Positions 12,307 to 21,792 of a DNA stretch of 43,624 bases are shown in pieces (position 1 is the first letter of the stretch; each line of letters begins with the position of its first letter). The DNA is from Eubacterium sp. Its GTDB lineage: Bacteria > Bacillota > Clostridia > Oscillospirales > Acutalibacteraceae. Position numbers and translations under genes: made by a program. Location: assembly GCA_017446095.1 (NCBI GenBank), contig JAFSRN010000017.1, positions 1 through 43,624 on the forward strand, given 5' to 3'. The notes under the pieces are model-generated. The model saw only the letters and a program-made list of their open reading frames with translations. It was not told where the DNA came from and did not search any database.

Positions 12307-12393
12307 GCCGGCGTGATGGAATTGGCAGACGTGCCGGACTCAAAATCCGGTCCTGGCAACAGGGTGCGGGTTCGACCCCCGCCGCCGGCACCA
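12307..12393 (+). tRNA. tRNA-Leu (CAA)
   Basis: This is an 87-base class II tRNA with a long variable arm (TCCTGGCAACAGGG region) and an encoded CCA. The acceptor arms GCCGGCG and CGCCGGC pair. The anticodon stem CCGGA/TCCGG holds loop CTCAAAA, so the anticodon is CAA. It is a single transcription unit with its own promoter and terminator. Confidence 0.96.
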
Positions 12394-14364: not shown

Positions 14365-16269
14365 ATGTTAAAAATCAATCCCAATACCACATTAAAAAGC
14401 GCCATGGTTAACCCCATGGCGAAAGATATTATTGAGAAGCTTATGCTTGCGCTGCGGCTTCCTGCAGATTTGCCGAACAAAAATAAAGTGTTCGGCAATC
14501 TTAAGTTTAAGACGCTTACCACGCTCACCGCAGGTCTGCTTGACAAAAAGACTGTGCAGACAATCTGCGATATGCTGAATCTGGAAACGGACGAGGTTAT
14601 CACGGATGAGGGTGAAATGGTTGAAAAATGGTGGAAAGAAGCCATAATTTACCAGATTTATCCGCGCTCGTTTTATGACAGCAACGGCGACGGCATTGGC
14701 GACCTTGCAGGCATTACGCAGAAGCTCGACTACCTCAAGGAACTCGGCGTTACTGCTATCTGGTGCTCGCCGTTTTACGATTCGCCAAACGACGATAACG
14801 GCTATGACATCCGCGATTATACAAAGATTATGACCGAATTCGGCACTATGGACGACTTTGACACGCTGCTTGAGGAAATCCATAAGCGCGATATGAAGTT
14901 GATTATCGACCTTGTAGTCAACCACACGAGCGACGAGCACAAGTGGTTTACGGAGGCGCTTAAGTCAAAGGACAATCCGTACCACGATTATTACATCTGG
15001 CGCGACGCAACCGACGGCGACAAAACACCTCCTAACAACTGGGTGAGCCTGTTCAAAGGTCCTGCCTGGAACTACTATGAAAGCGTTGACCAATGGGCAA
15101 TGCATCTGTTCAGCAAAAAGCAGATGGACCTGAACTGGGAAAATCCGAAGGTGCGCGAGAGTGTGTACGAGATTATGCTCTGGTGGCTCGATAAAGGCAT
15201 TGACGGCTTCAGAATGGACGTAATCAACTTTATCTCTAAACAGCCCGATTTACCCGATGCAAACGCCTTTTTAGGTATGCTAACAGGCTTTAAGGGCGCT
15301 GAATACTACTTCTACGGCCCCAAGCTTCACGACTATCTGCGTGAAATGCGCGAAAAGACATTCGGCAACTACGACGTATACACAGTCGGCGAGTGCGGCG
15401 GCGCAGGTATTGAGATGGACAAAATGCTCACTGCTGACTTCCGCGGCGAGCTTGACACGGTGTTCAATTTTGACTTCCTGATTAACCAGGGGCACACCGA
15501 TTACGACAACTATACATACGACCTGTACAAGGTTATGCTTGAGTTTGAACGCTTCCAGAGCGGTTACACAAACCACTGCTGGCCTGCTGTTTTCTTTGAG
15601 AATCACGATAATCCGCGAATCGTCAGCAAGGTTGATAAATCGGGCGCGTTCCGCGAGGATATCTCTAAACTCTGCGTGCTTATTGAAATGACTTTGCGCG
15701 GCACGCCGTATATCTACCAGGGTCAGGAAATCTCTATGGCTAACGGCGACTTTGAAAGCATTGACGAGATTGACGACAGGGAAGCTATCGGTCATTATAA
15801 CGAGATGATTGAAAAGGGCAAGAACCCTGAAAAAGCCTTTAAGCGTGCAAAAACAGGTACGCGCGACAATGCAAGGACGCCGTTCCAGTGGTCGGACAGC
15901 GAAAACGCCGGATTTACAACAGGTACGCCGTGGCTGCGTGTTACTTCCGACTACCGCAGATATAACGCGGAGGACGAGATGGCGCGCCCTGACAGCGTTT
16001 GGAATTTCTATAAAAAGGCAATTGCTCTGCGCAAAAACACAAAGGCACTTATTTACGGCTCGTTTACACGGTCGAGGGACGCACAAAAGCCCGTTTTCTG
16101 CTACTTCAGGGAATACGGCGACGAGAAGTATTATATTGAACTGAACCTCGGCTCAAAGCCGCAGAAAAAGCCGATTAACACTGATGATATGGAACTGATT
16201 TTGTCCACAAAAGATGTAAATTGCAGCAATTTGCGTCCGTTTGAGGGCAACATCTATAGAATTAAATAG
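14365..16269 (+). CDS. GH13 alpha-glucosidase / oligo-1,6-glucosidase with extra N-terminal region
   Basis: The 634-residue product has a GH13 catalytic barrel beginning at about residue 88 (WWKEAIIYQIYPRSFYDSNG). The four conserved regions are complete: DLVVNHTSD, GFRMDVINF with nucleophile Asp285, TVGECGG with acid/base Glu343 and FENHDNPR with Asp415. The IYQGQEISM stretch and the Val after the nucleophile fit the oligo-1,6-glucosidase/alpha-glucosidase subfamily, which cleaves short malto- or isomalto-oligosaccharides. No signal peptide is seen, so it is cytoplasmic. Unusually, ~87 residues precede the barrel (TTLKSAMVNPMAKDIIEKL...), a helical region with no counterpart in the plain enzyme. 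The ATG has AGAAGGGA nearby. It probably forms an operon with the upstream secreted C39 protein. No terminator is seen before the next promoter. Confidence 0.9.
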   Translation: MLKINPNTTLKSAMVNPMAKDIIEKLMLALRLPADLPNKNKVFGNLKFKTLTTLTAGLLDKKTVQTICDMLNLETDEVITDEGEMVEKWWKEAIIYQIYPRSFYDSNGDGIGDLAGITQKLDYLKELGVTAIWCSPFYDSPNDDNGYDIRDYTKIMTEFGTMDDFDTLLEEIHKRDMKLIIDLVVNHTSDEHKWFTEALKSKDNPYHDYYIWRDATDGDKTPPNNWVSLFKGPAWNYYESVDQWAMHLFSKKQMDLNWENPKVRESVYEIMLWWLDKGIDGFRMDVINFISKQPDLPDANAFLGMLTGFKGAEYYFYGPKLHDYLREMREKTFGNYDVYTVGECGGAGIEMDKMLTADFRGELDTVFNFDFLINQGHTDYDNYTYDLYKVMLEFERFQSGYTNHCWPAVFFENHDNPRIVSKVDKSGAFREDISKLCVLIEMTLRGTPYIYQGQEISMANGDFESIDEIDDREAIGHYNEMIEKGKNPEKAFKRAKTGTRDNARTPFQWSDSENAGFTTGTPWLRVTSDYRRYNAEDEMARPDSVWNFYKKAIALRKNTKALIYGSFTRSRDAQKPVFCYFREYGDEKYYIELNLGSKPQKKPINTDDMELILSTKDVNCSNLRPFEGNIYRIK

Positions 16270-16322: not shown

Positions 16323-16409
16323 GCTGGTGTGGCGAAATCGGCAGACGCAAGGGACTTAAAATCCCTCGGTAGCAATACCGTACCGGTTCAAGTCCGGTCA
16401 CCAGCACCA
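16323..16409 (+). tRNA. tRNA-Leu (UAA)
   Basis: This is an 87-base class II tRNA with an encoded CCA. The acceptor arms GCTGGTG (16323-16329) and CACCAGC (16399-16405) pair. The anticodon loop CTTAAAA gives anticodon UAA, and a long variable arm (CGGTAGCAATACCG) is present. It has its own promoter and terminator. Confidence 0.96.
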
Positions 16410-16473: not shown

Positions 16474-16502
16474 TTGAATATTATAATTTATTTTGTTATA
16501 AT
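16474..16502 (+). promoter_or_regulatory. Promoter of the DUF2156-MATE-GNAT-SpoIIE operon
   Basis: TTGAAT (16474-16479) and TATAAT (16497-16502) are 17 bases apart in a very AT-rich stretch, about 48 bases upstream of the first start codon. Nothing in it suggests a sigma-B-type promoter. Confidence 0.72.
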
Positions 16503-16550: not shown

Positions 16551-17438
16551 TTGAAAGTATCTATGGATGCCAAGCAGCAACTTACATTTACACATATTAC
16601 TATTTCGCAAAAGGAACAGGTTGAGGCTATTCGAGTAGCTTTTGGCAACACACAATATGTCTACACTTTTGCGTCGCTTTTTGCGTGGCAGGCAGATGAA
16701 GGTTACGAGATTTGTTTGCAGGACGATGCGTTTCTGGTAAAGAATAATGCAGCAGGGGATAACGCCTATCTTTTCCCATGCGGCACATACGATGGCAAAA
16801 AGCGGATGCTTGACAGCCTTATTAACAACGGCTGCGCGGAATTGTATTTCGTCAGTGATGAGGATAAAAGCTTTCTGGAAGCAGAGTATCCCGGTAGATT
16901 CAGTTTTAAAGAATGTCGCAACGATTTTTCCTACCTGTACGATAAAGATGAGCAGATTGAATTAAGCGGCAAGGACTACAAAAACTTGCGCCACCAGATA
17001 AATATTGGTCGTGCAGTTGCTGATAATTGGGAAATTGAGCCGCTTTGCGAAGGTAATGTTGAAAGAGCGCTTGCGCTGAACAGCCGCTGGGCTGCAGCTC
17101 GAAATATAAAAAGCGTGGCAGACACCCGCGCTGCGGAAACTGCACTGCGCAATTTTGACGACCTTGCGATGTGGGGCTTGATTTTTAAGGCAGACGGCGA
17201 GGATACTGCTTATATTGCTGGCTCGTTTGTTACGCCGGAGATATTTGACGTCAGCTTTTGCAAGGTGCTTGACAGACGTTGCGACTGCTACATAAAATGG
17301 GCGCTGTACTGCGCACTGCCAGAAGAAACTAAAACTGTTGATTCCGAAGAGGATCTGGGCATAGAGGGACTACGCACGCATAAGCTGCTGCGCAGACCTA
17401 AAGAACTCACAAGAGTGTGGAAAGGTGTTTTGAATTAA
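16551..17438 (+). CDS. DUF2156 / LPG-synthase C-terminal-like acyltransferase
   Basis: The start is TTG 16551, ten bases after GAAGGG; an earlier TTG (16521) has no binding site. The ~295-residue product resembles the DUF2156 (phosphatidylglycerol lysyltransferase C-terminal) group. This is a double GNAT-like fold that in MprF moves an aminoacyl group from tRNA to lipid. Visible hallmarks are the central YDKDEQIELSGKDYKNLRHQIN stretch (the family core Y...L..L.G..Y..KR..IN), a C-terminal Cys/Tyr-rich region with WALYCALPE, and NDLG-like DLGIEGLR near the end. There is no membrane domain, unlike MprF. It is the first gene of a four-gene operon; its stop overlaps the next start (TAATG). The substrate is not known. 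Confidence 0.75.
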   Translation: MKVSMDAKQQLTFTHITISQKEQVEAIRVAFGNTQYVYTFASLFAWQADEGYEICLQDDAFLVKNNAAGDNAYLFPCGTYDGKKRMLDSLINNGCAELYFVSDEDKSFLEAEYPGRFSFKECRNDFSYLYDKDEQIELSGKDYKNLRHQINIGRAVADNWEIEPLCEGNVERALALNSRWAAARNIKSVADTRAAETALRNFDDLAMWGLIFKADGEDTAYIAGSFVTPEIFDVSFCKVLDRRCDCYIKWALYCALPEETKTVDSEEDLGIEGLRTHKLLRRPKELTRVWKGVLN

Positions 17439-19177
17439 TGAGTGACGCTGTTTCGGCAAATATTAAGAGCAGAGCGTTTACCGACAGAATGTTCCGTCGG
17501 CTTTTTTGGCCGTCCCTTGTTTCGTCAATCGGTCTTGCTCTGGGCGATATTGCCGACGCGCTGTTTGTGGGTATCCGCCTCGGCAAAGTCGGGCTTGCCA
17601 CAATGTCGCTCGTTGCGCCTGTGTATATGATTTACAACGTTCTTGACGTTGGTATTGCTGTCGGCACATCCGTAAAATACACACAGCACCTCGGCAAGGG
17701 CGACGCAAAAAAGGGAATAGAAGTATTTTCGCAGATGCTTGTATTTGCAATTGCCGTCAGCCTTGCGGTTGCGGCTATCGGGCTTATCGCAATGCCGTAT
17801 ATTCTGCGGCTGCTCGGCGCAGGCGAAGTTAACGGCGAGCTGTGGAACTACACAAAAGAATACCTGCAGATTATGTTCCTCGGCGCACCGCTTACATTCT
17901 TATACTTCTTACTATACTACTGCGTTCGCTGTGACGACGCGCAAAAGCTTGCAAGCGCAGGCTTTACAATCGGCTACCTCACAGACGTTGTTGCAAGTGC
18001 GGTGTTCATTATGGGCTTTAAGCTCGATGTGCGCGGCGCAATCTACGCAACAGTTCTGGGCAAGTTCGTAGGCGTGTGCATCTTCTTATTCCACTTTACA
18101 AGAGAGTGGGCGATTCTGCGATTCCGTCCGTTTAAGCCCGATGTTAGCCTTGTAATCGGCGTGCTTAAAACGGGTATGTCGTCATCTGTTGGCTATATCG
18201 GTCAGTTTATCGCGCTGATTGTAGTTAATAACCTACTGCAGAATATAGGCGGCGAGAGCGCGCTTGCCGTACTCAACGTCGTGCAGGATGTATCTTACGT
18301 CGCGCTTGCGATTTATATGGCGCTCGGCGACACTATTCAGCCGCTCAGCGGCACGTTCTTTGCAGAGCATAACAGGGACGCAATCAAGCGTACTATGGGG
18401 CTTGGCATGAAAATCGGCGTTGCCTGCGGTGCAGTTATTGCCGCTGCATTTGCTTTCTTTGCGCCGTCTATCTGCACTTTGTTCGGCTTAAAAGGCACCG
18501 CTGTGAGCATGGGCACATTTGCTATAAGGCTGTTCTGCCTGTCGATAATTCCTGCTGGCATCAGTATTATCTGGAGTGCTTGCTTCCAGGCGATTAAGAG
18601 GGAACGTATTGTATTCCTCATTAACCAACTGCGCACCTTTGTCTGCTTTTTAGCGTTCGCATTAGTGCTTTCTTGCTTTGAGATAAAATGGTTTTGGTGC
18701 ACGTTTTTAGGTGCGGAACTGTTGTCGCTCGCAATCTGGGTACCTGTTAGTTTAAAGACGAGAAAAACGGCGTCTGATAAGGTGTTTAACTATCTGCTTG
18801 ACACAAACTCCTCCGATATTTCCGACCTGATGAATAAGGCAGAGGCTTTTTGTGAAAAGTATGACGCCACCCCAATGCAGAACTACTGTGTTGTTCTGTG
18901 CGTTGAGGAAATCTGCCAGGCGATTATTGAAAACGCGTTTGAGCAGCAGGGCGACGAGTATATACAGCTCACCCTTTGTATTGAAAACGACGGCGCGTTT
19001 GTAATTCATATTCGCGATAATGCGGTTAGCTTTAACCCGTTTGCAATGAACATGGGGCAGGATTACGATGATGAAGAGCAGCTTGCCTCGCTCGGCGTGC
19101 AGATGGTTAAGAACAAGTCGAAGCAGTTCTTCTACCGCCGCTACGCAAACTTCAACACACTTACAGTAGAGGTATAG
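17438..19177 (+). CDS. MATE-family transporter fused to anti-sigma-factor-type ATPase domain
   Basis: The start is ATG 17438, overlapping the previous stop. The 579-residue product has two parts. Residues ~15-440 form a MATE-type multidrug/cation antiporter with about twelve hydrophobic helices, beginning WPSLVSSIGLALGDIADALFVG. Residues ~447-579 look like a GHKL/HATPase_c_2 domain of the RsbW/SpoIIAB class: an N-box-like CVEEICQAIIENA (Glu490-Glu491), a G1-like IRDNAVSFNP (Asp527) and a closing LGVQMVKNKSKQFFYRR...NTLTVEV. Two usually conserved positions differ: the N-box Asn is Gln494 and the Gly after Asp-Asn is Ala. The domain follows the last helix on the cytoplasmic side. With a SpoIIE phosphatase two genes downstream, this suggests transport linked to partner-switch signalling (inference). 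Confidence 0.8.
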   Translation: MSDAVSANIKSRAFTDRMFRRLFWPSLVSSIGLALGDIADALFVGIRLGKVGLATMSLVAPVYMIYNVLDVGIAVGTSVKYTQHLGKGDAKKGIEVFSQMLVFAIAVSLAVAAIGLIAMPYILRLLGAGEVNGELWNYTKEYLQIMFLGAPLTFLYFLLYYCVRCDDAQKLASAGFTIGYLTDVVASAVFIMGFKLDVRGAIYATVLGKFVGVCIFLFHFTREWAILRFRPFKPDVSLVIGVLKTGMSSSVGYIGQFIALIVVNNLLQNIGGESALAVLNVVQDVSYVALAIYMALGDTIQPLSGTFFAEHNRDAIKRTMGLGMKIGVACGAVIAAAFAFFAPSICTLFGLKGTAVSMGTFAIRLFCLSIIPAGISIIWSACFQAIKRERIVFLINQLRTFVCFLAFALVLSCFEIKWFWCTFLGAELLSLAIWVPVSLKTRKTASDKVFNYLLDTNSSDISDLMNKAEAFCEKYDATPMQNYCVVLCVEEICQAIIENAFEQQGDEYIQLTLCIENDGAFVIHIRDNAVSFNPFAMNMGQDYDDEEQLASLGVQMVKNKSKQFFYRRYANFNTLTVEV

Positions 19178-19181
19178 CGCT

Positions 19182-20006
19182 ATGATTACCGATATTCGTA
19201 AGGCTGAAAAGCAGGATATTCCTGTGTTGTGCGAAATCTGGAAGGCTTGCTTTTCCGATTCCGAGGATTATATCCGAAGCTTTTATAAAGAGAATTTTGA
19301 GCGTATTGAGGTGCTGCTCTGTTGCATTGACGGCAAGCCTGTTTGTATGCTGCATTTGCTTGACGCAGAGTTTGTAAACGGCGGCGAAATTCAAAAGGCA
19401 AAGTATATGTACGCAGGCGGAACACTGCCTGAATACCGCAAAAACGGCTGCCTCGGCGCGCTGCTTGAATATGCAAAAGAGCGTGCTGATAAAACGGGCG
19501 ACGCGCTGTTTTTCAAACCTGTTTCTCCAACGCTTACCGACTATTTTAAGGGTCACGGTTATGTTATTGATTCTTACTTCAAAATAGCAACTGTTCTGCC
19601 TGGAAAGGTTGAGCTGATTGGTTTCACCGACCTTTCGTATAAAGAGTACAATCTTATGAGGAATTCGGCGTTTGCCGATATTCCGTACGTCAGGTGGGAT
19701 GATGAGCATCTGCGCTGGTGCGTTATGGAAAACGATTATTATTCAGGCAGAACTCTTGGCGTAAACCTTATCGGCAAAGAGCATTTTATTATGTGCTATC
19801 CCGATTCGGATGCACTTATAATAAACGAAACCGATTTGTCTTTAAATCAACTAAAGCAAATCAGCGGCGCACTGTGCGAGCAGTTTGGCACAACGCAAAT
19901 CAAGGCGTATATGCACGAAACCTGCAGCGAGGGTGAAAGTGTAATATCCTCCTTCGTTTACAACACGCCGCTTTGCAAGACCTACGTAAATCTGATTCTT
20001 ATATAA
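19182..20006 (+). CDS. GNAT-family N-acetyltransferase
   Basis: The 274-residue product carries an N-terminal GNAT domain. IRKAEKQDIPVLCEIWKACF is the usual opening helix. The acetyl-CoA loop lies around residues 80-100, where YAGGTLPEYRKNGCLGALL matches the pattern Q/R-x-x-G-x-G/A with the Gly partly replaced (RKNGCLG). The C-terminal half (~140-274) has no motif I can name and may be a second, degenerate acyltransferase lobe. The start lies four bases after the MATE stop, with AGAGGT upstream, and the following phosphatase is 12 bases on, so it sits inside the operon. The acceptor substrate is unknown. Confidence 0.82.
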   Translation: MITDIRKAEKQDIPVLCEIWKACFSDSEDYIRSFYKENFERIEVLLCCIDGKPVCMLHLLDAEFVNGGEIQKAKYMYAGGTLPEYRKNGCLGALLEYAKERADKTGDALFFKPVSPTLTDYFKGHGYVIDSYFKIATVLPGKVELIGFTDLSYKEYNLMRNSAFADIPYVRWDDEHLRWCVMENDYYSGRTLGVNLIGKEHFIMCYPDSDALIINETDLSLNQLKQISGALCEQFGTTQIKAYMHETCSEGESVISSFVYNTPLCKTYVNLILI

Positions 20007-20018
20007 GGAAATATTATT

Positions 20019-21746
20019 ATGGCTAAAAAAGAAAAATCAAAGATGAACAAAATATTCTCCCTGCGATTTAAGGCTGTTGCAATTATTCTTGTTTTTGCAG
20101 TGGTTTTATCTGCCATCGCTATTGCTATCAGTTATAATTATTACAGCAAAACGATGTTTAATCACTACGAGGAGCTTGCTTCAAACGTTGCAAAGTCTGT
20201 TGCCGTACAGCTTGATTCCGACGAGCTACTGCGCTATTACAACGAGGTTAAGAAGGTCGGCGTATATGACGATGAGAAGTATGAAAACGACGAAGCATAC
20301 CGCGCAGAGTACGACAAGAAGGTAAACGCGCTCAAAGACGAGAGTTATAATAAAACGCTCAACTTCCTTTTCGATATCAAGAATAGTTTTGACAATCAGG
20401 ATGTAGGTAACCACTACGCAAAGATTGAGTACCTTTATGTGCAGAAGCTTGAGGGCGATTACTGTACATATCTGTTTGACGCGGACGAAGAGGACGCTTA
20501 TCAGTTCGGCACAAAGCACCATGTGTCTGCCGCTACAATGGAAACCGAAAATCCGGAAGAAGGAATTGAGCCCTTTGTTTCCAACGACGGCGAGTGGCTT
20601 GTTACCGCTGTTGAGCCTGTAAGGGATAAAGACGGCAAGCCCGTTGCACTTGTGGGCGTTGATATTTCTATGGAAAGGATTATCAGCGACAGAACTACAT
20701 ACCTGCGCAACGTTATTTCGATTATGGCGGCGGCTGTTGCTATTCTTCTTGTGCTGATTCTGCTTTGCGTTGACGGTACCATAGTTAAGCCAATCAACAA
20801 GCTTTCTTCCGCTGCACGCAGCTTTGTTGAGGACAGGAATAAGAGCAGAAAAGGCAATTCCTCTTTATCAAAGCTCAGAATCAGAAGCGGCGACGAAATC
20901 GGCACGCTGTTTGATTCCATTAAGCAGATGGAATACGACATAAATGAATATATCACAAACATCACTACCATCACCGCGGAAAAAGAGAGAATCGGCGCGG
21001 AGCTTGACGTAGCAAAGCACATCCAGTCGTCAATGCTGCCGAGCATTTTCCCGGCGTTCCCAGACATCCCCGAGTTCGATATTTACGCGACTATGGACCC
21101 TGCAAAAGAAGTCGGAGGCGACTTTTACGACTTCTTTATGGTTGACGATACGCACCTTGCAATCGTTGTTGCAGACGTATCCGGCAAGGGTGTTCCGGCA
21201 GCGCTGTTTATGGTAATCGGTAAAACGCTGATTAAAGACCATACAATGCCTGATGTAGACCTCAGCAGCGTGTTTGCAGAGGTTAACAATATGCTGTGCG
21301 AATCCAACAGCGAAGAGCTGTTTATCACGGCATTTGAGGGCGTATTAGACCTCGTTACAGGCGAGTTCCGCTATGTTAACGCAGGTCACGAGCCGCCGTT
21401 TATTATGCGCGACGGCAACAACTTTGAGCTGTTTAAGATTAAGCCGTGCTTTGTACTTGCAGGTATGGAAAATATCAACTACAAGAGCGGCGTTACCACA
21501 CTTTCGCCGGGTGATAAAATCTTCCAGTATACCGACGGTGTTACCGAGGCTACCGATAAGGACAACAATCTTTTCGGTATGCAGCGCCTTGAGGACGCAC
21601 TTAATAACGCAAAGGACAAGAGCGCTACCGATATTCTTAAAGCCGTTAAATCCGATATTGATGAGTTTGTGGGCGACGCACCGCAGTTTGACGATATCAC
21701 GATGCTTTGCCTCAACTTCAGGCAGTATCTGAAAGGCGACGAATAA
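20019..21746 (+). CDS. Membrane sensor SpoIIE-type PP2C phosphatase with HAMP domain
   Basis: The 575-residue product has membrane helices at about residues 18-38 and 233-253 that flank a ~195-residue extracytoplasmic sensor region. A HAMP-like linker follows (IVKPINKLSSAARSF...GDEIGTLFDSIKQM), then a coiled segment and a PP2C/SpoIIE domain (~335-570). Phosphatase metal-site residues are visible: Asp368 in EVGGDFYDFF, ADVSGKGVPAALFM, TDGVTEATD and FDDITML. Such RsbU/SpoIIE enzymes dephosphorylate STAS-domain anti-anti-sigma factors in response to stress. It closes the operon with a strong terminator. No STAS protein or sigma factor lies in the window, so the target is unknown. The ATG follows AAGGAAA. 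Confidence 0.93.
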   Translation: MAKKEKSKMNKIFSLRFKAVAIILVFAVVLSAIAIAISYNYYSKTMFNHYEELASNVAKSVAVQLDSDELLRYYNEVKKVGVYDDEKYENDEAYRAEYDKKVNALKDESYNKTLNFLFDIKNSFDNQDVGNHYAKIEYLYVQKLEGDYCTYLFDADEEDAYQFGTKHHVSAATMETENPEEGIEPFVSNDGEWLVTAVEPVRDKDGKPVALVGVDISMERIISDRTTYLRNVISIMAAAVAILLVLILLCVDGTIVKPINKLSSAARSFVEDRNKSRKGNSSLSKLRIRSGDEIGTLFDSIKQMEYDINEYITNITTITAEKERIGAELDVAKHIQSSMLPSIFPAFPDIPEFDIYATMDPAKEVGGDFYDFFMVDDTHLAIVVADVSGKGVPAALFMVIGKTLIKDHTMPDVDLSSVFAEVNNMLCESNSEELFITAFEGVLDLVTGEFRYVNAGHEPPFIMRDGNNFELFKIKPCFVLAGMENINYKSGVTTLSPGDKIFQYTDGVTEATDKDNNLFGMQRLEDALNNAKDKSATDILKAVKSDIDEFVGDAPQFDDITMLCLNFRQYLKGDE

Positions 21747-21754
21747 GTGTATAA

Positions 21755-21792
21755 AAATTCCCCGCAGAGCGAATCTGCGGGGTTTGCTTTTT
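21755..21792. terminator. Bidirectional terminator between convergent transcripts
   Basis: Stem CCCCGCAGA (21760-21768) / TCTGCGGGG (21774-21782) is flanked by AAAAATT on the left and TTTGCTTTTT on the right. It can serve both the phosphatase operon and the convergent dehydrogenase gene. Confidence 0.92.

Follow-up and report, generated by a model that had tools for sequence, protein, structure and literature searches.

The window analysed here is a stretch of 43,624 nucleotides from Eubacterium sp. (assembly GCA_017446095.1, contig JAFSRN010000017.1, positions 1 to 43,624, forward strand). It carries on its plus strand, at 16551-21746, an operon of four genes whose second gene encodes a MATE transporter joined to an RsbW-type HATPase domain. 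In many gut and rumen bacteria, such an exporter with an apparently disabled kinase copy is often found beside the genes of a partner switch, an arrangement by which a sensed signal might open or close the exporter directly.

A four-gene operon conserved in relatives

The first gene (16551..17438, 295 aa, TTG start) encodes a DUF2156 / LPG_synthase_C-type acyl(aminoacyl)transferase, which matched Pfam LPG_synthase_C (PF09924) at 63.6 bits against a cut-off of 27.5, over positions 7-198 of the 298 in the profile. Among solved structures, the profile of its family gave a single match, PDB 2hqy, listed as a 'conserved hypothetical protein' (1.1e-40). The MATE-HATPase gene (17438..19177, 579 aa) overlaps the first gene by 1 base. 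Its product carries two MatE stretches (101.1 bits) followed by the HATPase domain (18773..19174), whose nucleotide site is degenerate by residue comparison and which scored 31.3 bits with HATPase_c_2 against a cut-off of 27.4. Thus, the C-terminal domain does score as a GHKL ATPase, a check that the initial annotation had proposed. After a gap of 4 bases comes a GNAT acetyltransferase gene (Acetyltransf_9, 50.9 bits; 19182..20006, 274 aa) and, after a further gap of 12 bases, the gene of a membrane sensor SpoIIE phosphatase (20019..21746, 575 aa). The coordinates, the shared strand, the overlap and both gaps agree with the tight operon first described, and all four reading frames are intact.

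The SpoIIE protein scored 154.9 bits with the SpoIIE profile, and its phosphatase domain (21144..21719) 158.2 bits, over positions 1-191 of 192. By sequence reading, two hydrophobic helices flank a Cache-like segment, followed by a HAMP-like linker and the SpoIIE PP2C. The protein had been annotated as a HAMP-sensor SpoIIE; the phosphatase is confirmed, whereas in the window HAMP stays under its cut-off (21.3 against 25), as does dCache_1 (16.5 against 45). Among the three SpoIIE proteins of relatives that were scanned, dCache_1 was above cut-off in 3/3 and HAMP in 2/3.

One promoter and one terminator had been assigned to the four genes. The terminator is a strong intrinsic hairpin on the plus strand at 21760..21782 (9-pair stem, 7 G-C). 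The TG-extended promoter-like site on the same strand, TTGAAT-17-TATAAT at 16474..16502, is weak evidence: because its 10-of-12 consensus match sits in a region with 19 such matches, where shuffled sequence has 10.6 on average, a single promoter shared by the four genes is plausible at most.

The same arrangement recurs in related genomes. A scan with the window's MATE-HATPase protein, taking one genome per species, yielded 34 loci, at least 12 of which belong to the window's genus (contig coordinates matched by eye), so they are not independent of that genus. DUF2156 lies directly upstream of the fused gene in 34/34 relatives, and GNAT and SpoIIE lie downstream in 30/34; the other four (L022, L031, L032 and L038) stop at contig ends. 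As the gene order is held in 34/34 relatives as far as contigs extend, it is not due to chance. A side observation concerns the metagenome-assembled genome of L020, where the operon's GNAT gene is broken into two reading frames (L020:4814-5466), possibly through a frameshift or an assembly error.

Searches with the HATPase profile reached further. At the order level they matched 37/394 genomes, in 26/168 genera, and at the phylum level 24/398 genomes, some of these matches being plain RsbW domains. Within the window's genus, 24 of the 80 genomes match (own genome included), 20 of them at E < 1e-59; therefore, the operon has a patchy distribution among these genomes. The MATE-HATPase module is real and conserved, and its genes are neighbours in several genera, an outcome that the initial annotation had named as supportive.

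A degenerate kinase fold on a DinF-like transporter

With its two MatE stretches and a DinF-BH-like core, the transporter resembles the DinF subfamily of MATE proteins, and its nearest solved structures are BH2163 (DinF-BH) and PF0708 (PfMATE). The transporter core is alike in these exporters, including Asp40, a candidate residue for cation- or proton-coupled export; this residue aligns with Asp40 of BH2163 and is invariant across 24 aligned rows. The window protein differs from DinF-BH and PfMATE in the added C-terminal HATPase domain of ~135 residues and in Ser187, which in the alignment occupies the position of BH2163 Asp184.

We examined 86 loci, namely the window, its 34 relatives and 51 from the wider order- and phylum-level searches, and counted 80. 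The six dropped were three at contig ends (L031, L032, L038), one with a split reading frame (L092) and two without a MATE fusion (L131, L132). Also omitted were L083 and L084 (duplicates of L024 and L027), L136 and L137 (no MATE) and a second fused open reading frame in L106. Not counting the window's own genome, the order-level search gave 41 places, of which 40 were used; for the 46 places of the phylum-level search, 15 stretches were used, chosen mainly by open-frame length. The names intermediate, distant and phylum-level denote groups set up by search and score and do not stand for clades.

The nucleotide site of RsbW-type kinases is built from the N, G1 and G2 boxes. In the window's domain, the N-box Asn is replaced by Ala495 (18920-18922), the G1-box Gly by Ala529 (19022-19024) and the first G2-box Gly by Ser551 (19088-19090); Glu491, Asp527 and Gly553 are kept. 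The window-type copies (n = 32, window included) share this pattern, with Ala at the N-box and at G1 in 32/32, Ser (30) or Ala (2) for the first G2 Gly, and the Glu, Asp and last Gly of the site retained. All six nucleotide-site residues (E, N, D, G, G, G) occur together in 0/80 MATE-fused domains versus 45/46 RsbW-type domains, the latter taken from the same stretches (any position), two own-genome loci and the own SpoIIAB by a canonical-sequence profile with a 60-bit floor, a choice that favours intact motifs. The canonical RsbW profile beats the fused-type profile in 0/83 MATE-fused domains. As the nucleotide-site residues are never all kept, kinase activity of the RsbW type is not expected of the MATE-fused domain, and its catalysis appears lost. 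Thus, the RsbW/SpoIIAB-like HATPase first annotated on the transporter stands as a fold but, by sequence, not as a working kinase.

The domain has been kept all the same. Across 36 window-type pairs with dS < 2, 34 of which have dS > 1 in the transporter part, the median dN/dS was 0.097 for the HATPase domain and 0.103 for the transporter core; purifying selection on the domain is as strong as on the core. Because the domain is conserved despite its lost active-site residues, a predicted binding site is the best explanation for what looks like a dead kinase fold.

Partner-switching genes beside the fused transporter

Within 5 kb and on the same strand, SpoIIE genes were found near 59 of the 80 MATE-HATPase genes, STAS genes near 36 and RsbW near 39. 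At least one of the three lies near 66/80, all three near 25/80 and none near 14/80, one of the latter (L022) ending at a contig end. These counts are lower bounds because 37/80 loci have less than 5 kb available on a side. In contrast, the 5-kb surroundings of 38 ordinary MATE genes, which include 4 genes of the window genome, contained none of the three on either strand. These controls come from 40 regions chosen by hand, of which 38 were recognised (not L161 and L168), and include genome G103, which has no MATE-HATPase match; 4/38 have a flank shorter than 5 kb on one side (L162, L169, L170 and L175, with just 178 bases in L169). The Fisher value for fused against ordinary MATE genes, 1e-19, is uncorrected for kinship and overstates independence because the loci are related; the contrast is plain nonetheless. 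The link to partner switching that had been suggested from the window, with STAS proteins near homologues, is borne out, as STAS and RsbW share the operon with the fused gene in many relatives.

In gene maps, a STAS gene of ~98 residues lies just upstream in many relatives, and the RsbW domain is in many of them a C-terminal fusion to SpoIIE or a separate gene nearby. Among window-type loci, STAS is present in 13/32 and RsbW in 19/32, fused to SpoIIE in 18 and separate in L037; among intermediate loci the counts are 9/11 and 10/11. Since RsbW is fused to SpoIIE in L035 and L036 and lies within 5 kb in 10/11 intermediate loci, the pattern suggests that RsbW is ancestral; at the level of the window's clade, the tree gives no resolution for counting losses of RsbW or STAS. 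With the own SigF-like protein as the single query, so that other sigma types could have escaped notice, no SigF-like gene turned up in the 5-kb surroundings of the 80 loci.

STAS proteins of this kind are phosphorylated on a serine. The serine aligning with the SpoIIAA phospho-acceptor is kept in 53/53 STAS domains from the locus stretches and the own genome, a pattern consistent with an operating RsbW/SpoIIE cycle in which STAS is the putative messenger. The STAS protein of L037 also scores above the NCBIfam cut-off for anti-sigma factor antagonists.

Some members of the group may draw on partners encoded elsewhere. RsbW is absent not only from the window operon but also in L009, L020, L028 and L034, and L026 has no SpoIIE-fused RsbW, its contig ending soon after; L005 retains STAS, and L037 both STAS and RsbW. 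Among 14 genomes without an adjacent same-strand operon STAS, 12 have a free STAS elsewhere (E < 1e-35), the loci L014 and L028 having little upstream sequence; therefore, supply of STAS in trans appears common in the group. The window genome, which is 97% complete, encodes one SpoIIAA-like STAS protein and three STAS-APH proteins, one APH part being a match to TIGR02172 below cut-off. Besides the fused domain it has four HATPase_c_2 domains: SpoIIAB, RsbW alone (C7), an RsbW-SpoIIE fusion (C13) and a distant one (C5), which by sequence reading lies in a redox-gene setting.

The same genome also holds, on its contig C13, a STAS-APH fusion followed directly by a 944-aa protein with an N-terminal membrane region, SpoIIE and an intact RsbW (L048:3074-7044). 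These genes form a second operon for partner switching, with an APH-type phosphotransferase as its apparent output. Just downstream of it, on the opposite strand (L048:7220-8080, minus), lies a sigma factor gene that matches the own SigF at 130 bits.

A transporter as the candidate output

We hypothesize, and think it rather likely, that the operon encodes a partner-switching module with a transporter in place of a sigma factor as its output, in which the MATE protein would be gated by a STAS protein docked on the apparently dead domain. The Cache-HAMP-SpoIIE protein would be a phosphatase with an extracellular Cache-like sensor, and the opposing kinase would be the RsbW domain, fused to the SpoIIE C-terminus or separate in about half of the loci. 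Both would share the STAS protein as substrate. A signal would activate SpoIIE, STAS would be dephosphorylated, and unphosphorylated STAS would bind the dead RsbW-like domain on the MATE protein as RsbV binds RsbW. Docking would open or close the transporter, and phosphorylation by RsbW would reverse it. The window operon would have to draw STAS (perhaps the STAS domain of one of the three STAS-APH proteins) and RsbW from loci elsewhere, unless its switch is reduced. Docking, gating, cargo and supply in trans are all inferred here; docking is the likely mechanism because unphosphorylated STAS naturally targets surfaces of the RsbW type, and the transporter displays one. We would give an even chance to a broader form of the model, in which the phosphorylation switch drives transport directly and, in some lineages, STAS is fused to a cargo-making or tagging enzyme such as an APH-type kinase or a Condensation domain, such that one extracellular sensor phosphatase assembles synthesis and export of a small molecule on demand.

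Several findings weigh against the gated-exporter model. The window operon holds neither a STAS with the phospho-acceptor serine nor an intact RsbW kinase, and no free operon-type STAS was found in its genome, which therefore would need a STAS-APH protein unless the switch is reduced; the genomes of L016 and L018 likewise have no free STAS at E < 1e-35. In the distant order-level group, 13/26 fused MATE genes have no same-strand partner within 5 kb. This group also keeps the N-box Asn in 22/26, with Cys at G1 in 20/26 and His at G2 in 18/26; therefore, motif loss is graded, and nucleotide binding is possible there. The RsbW set used for comparison was, as noted, picked in a way that favours intact motifs. 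Finally, the fused-domain profile has RsbW and SpoIIAB as its best matches among solved structures, at weak values (E 0.0015-0.0031), and a single-sequence search of the domain against solved structures gave nothing credible.

A different use of the same surface is possible, although we consider it the less probable one: the dead domain would be a docking hub that recruits STAS-tagged enzymes, and the phosphorylation switch would link modification of the cargo to its export, with the transporter itself left ungated. STAS-APH-RsbW triple fusions adjoin the MATE-HATPase gene at L103:8452-10041, L105:9809-11404 (domains confirmed by Pfam), L107:6390-7937 and L109:6230-7816, and the three STAS-APH proteins of the window genome also count in favour of the hub. 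Fusions of STAS to an NRPS-type Condensation domain lie beside MATE-HATPase at L128:1355-2947, L130:4787-6391 and L135:5052-6644, and in L130 and L135 they are the only STAS within 5 kb; in these loci, the switch possibly controls peptide or amide synthesis. L128 also encodes an NRPS-like adenylation-carrier-condensation protein. Against the hub, any STAS that a window-type operon does contain is a free one, and Pfam shows no STAS domain in the DUF2156 and GNAT proteins of the window. Other accessory genes differ by operon: formyl transferase (L086, L087, L089), methyltransferase (L113), GH3 with ATP-grasp (L133) and GNAT (L127); a Pfam scan of eight neighbouring proteins gave no match (L110, L115, L095 (467 aa), L118, L129 (275 aa), L121, L126 (479 aa), L122). 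Because the accessory enzymes vary and STAS is sometimes fused to enzymes, the loci suggest small-molecule tailoring and export, a pattern that also feeds the recruitment alternative. In the window, the DUF2156 and GNAT proteins probably serve to produce or alter the compound that is exported; that the acyltransferases modify the cargo itself is a guess.

The window copy could be a decaying remnant of a full module that no longer switches, given that STAS and RsbW are absent from it while L005 keeps the former and L037 both; we regard this as unlikely, as its frames are intact, its SpoIIE matches the whole Pfam profile and the RsbW-less state recurs in the four loci named above. We are more doubtful still about a mere co-transcribed stress or resistance cluster, with a SpoIIE serving another STAS system and the HATPase domain as a structural relic. 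The absence of STAS and RsbW from the window copy, the unaccompanied half of the distant genes and the varying accessory genes would agree with it, but the HATPase domain evolves as slowly as the transporter, and STAS, RsbW and SpoIIE are absent around 38/38 ordinary MATE genes. That the MATE-fused domain is an active, membrane-tethered RsbW-like kinase or anti-sigma factor was rejected on its motifs and is very improbable. Its HATPase_c_2 score above cut-off and its best structural matches speak for a kinase; nevertheless, N-box, G1 and G2 residues are replaced in 32/32 window-type copies and in no case all intact among the 80 domains, 19/32 window-type loci carry a distinct RsbW domain within the operon (39/80 loci overall have a distinct, intact one), and no SigF-like gene lies near any of the 80, other sigma types being outside that search.

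Partner switching is best known for freeing sigma factors. SiaABCD of Pseudomonas aeruginosa has another output: a sensor SpoIIE phosphatase feeds a STAS protein that acts on a diguanylate cyclase, whereas the candidate output here is a MATE transporter, and the NCBIfam match to SiaA reached 80.9 bits, far under the 700-bit cut-off. MprF, an LPG synthase plus flippase, resembles the window operon in pairing a DUF2156 enzyme with a lipid- or drug-type exporter; the exporter here is a MATE protein, and a lipid substrate is putative. In the Bacillus systems RsbU/RsbV/RsbW and SpoIIE/SpoIIAA/SpoIIAB, as covered by the available part of PMC8256260, a SpoIIE PP2C, an RsbW HATPase kinase and a serine-bearing STAS act together, and these are likewise adjacent in many relatives here. 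The difference lies in the candidate output, here a transporter that bears an apparently dead RsbW-like domain, with no SigF-like gene within 5 kb of the 80 loci by the single query used.

According to the available parts of PMC8256260 and PMC12826045, STAS proteins act via sigma factors or, in the case of SypA, on a target given as unknown. In this SypE/SypA system of Vibrio fischeri, RsbW-like kinase activity and PP2C activity control the STAS protein, unphosphorylated STAS is active and no sigma factor route is known; here, the operon itself encodes a candidate target, namely the MATE-fused domain. SulP/SLC26 transporters, in the part of PMC8256260 available, carry a C-terminal STAS and share with our protein a partner-switching fold on a membrane transporter; they bear the STAS half, whereas MATE-HATPase bears the kinase half, apparently dead. 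The accessible portion of PMC9239204 names HATPase kinases that lack HisKA and have STAS proteins as their targets. The portion available of PMC2887360, which matched all search terms together, contained nothing on transporter output. Among the literature matches listed, drawn from one open-access library with few subscription journals, such that absence is weak evidence, no description combined MATE with partner switching, in agreement with the initial annotation, to which no described system of this composition was known. As far as the searches show, the module is undescribed, and the candidate transporter-output form of partner switching would be what is new.

If true, transporter-output partner switching in gut and rumen Clostridia would provide fast post-translational control of export, and it would explain why a kinase fold is conserved after loss of its active site. 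The module would also be a test bed for STAS action on targets besides sigma factors, SypA's own being given as unknown in the available parts of PMC8256260 and PMC12826045. It would connect sensor phosphatases with operons that tailor and export small molecules, of which the listed matches included no study.

Two other explanations of the locus were tried and rejected. An anti-phage defence role was not supported, as PADLOC matches none of the four operon proteins. Misplacement of the contig in its genome was rejected on the window's RadA, which is 74-77% identical to 3/3 same-genus and 59-62% to 2/2 same-family genomes; against family f20, it is 53% identical to G019, with no full-length match in G344 and G350.

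Upstream of the operon lies a tRNA-Leu gene (16323-16409). Together with a second one at 12307-12393 (anticodons caa and taa for 12307-12393 and 16323-16409, respectively), it flanks amylase-like and C39-peptidase-like genes, named by sequence reading. The alpha-amylase-family protein encoded at 14365-16269 has, by the same reading, ~90 extra N-terminal residues before its catalytic domain.

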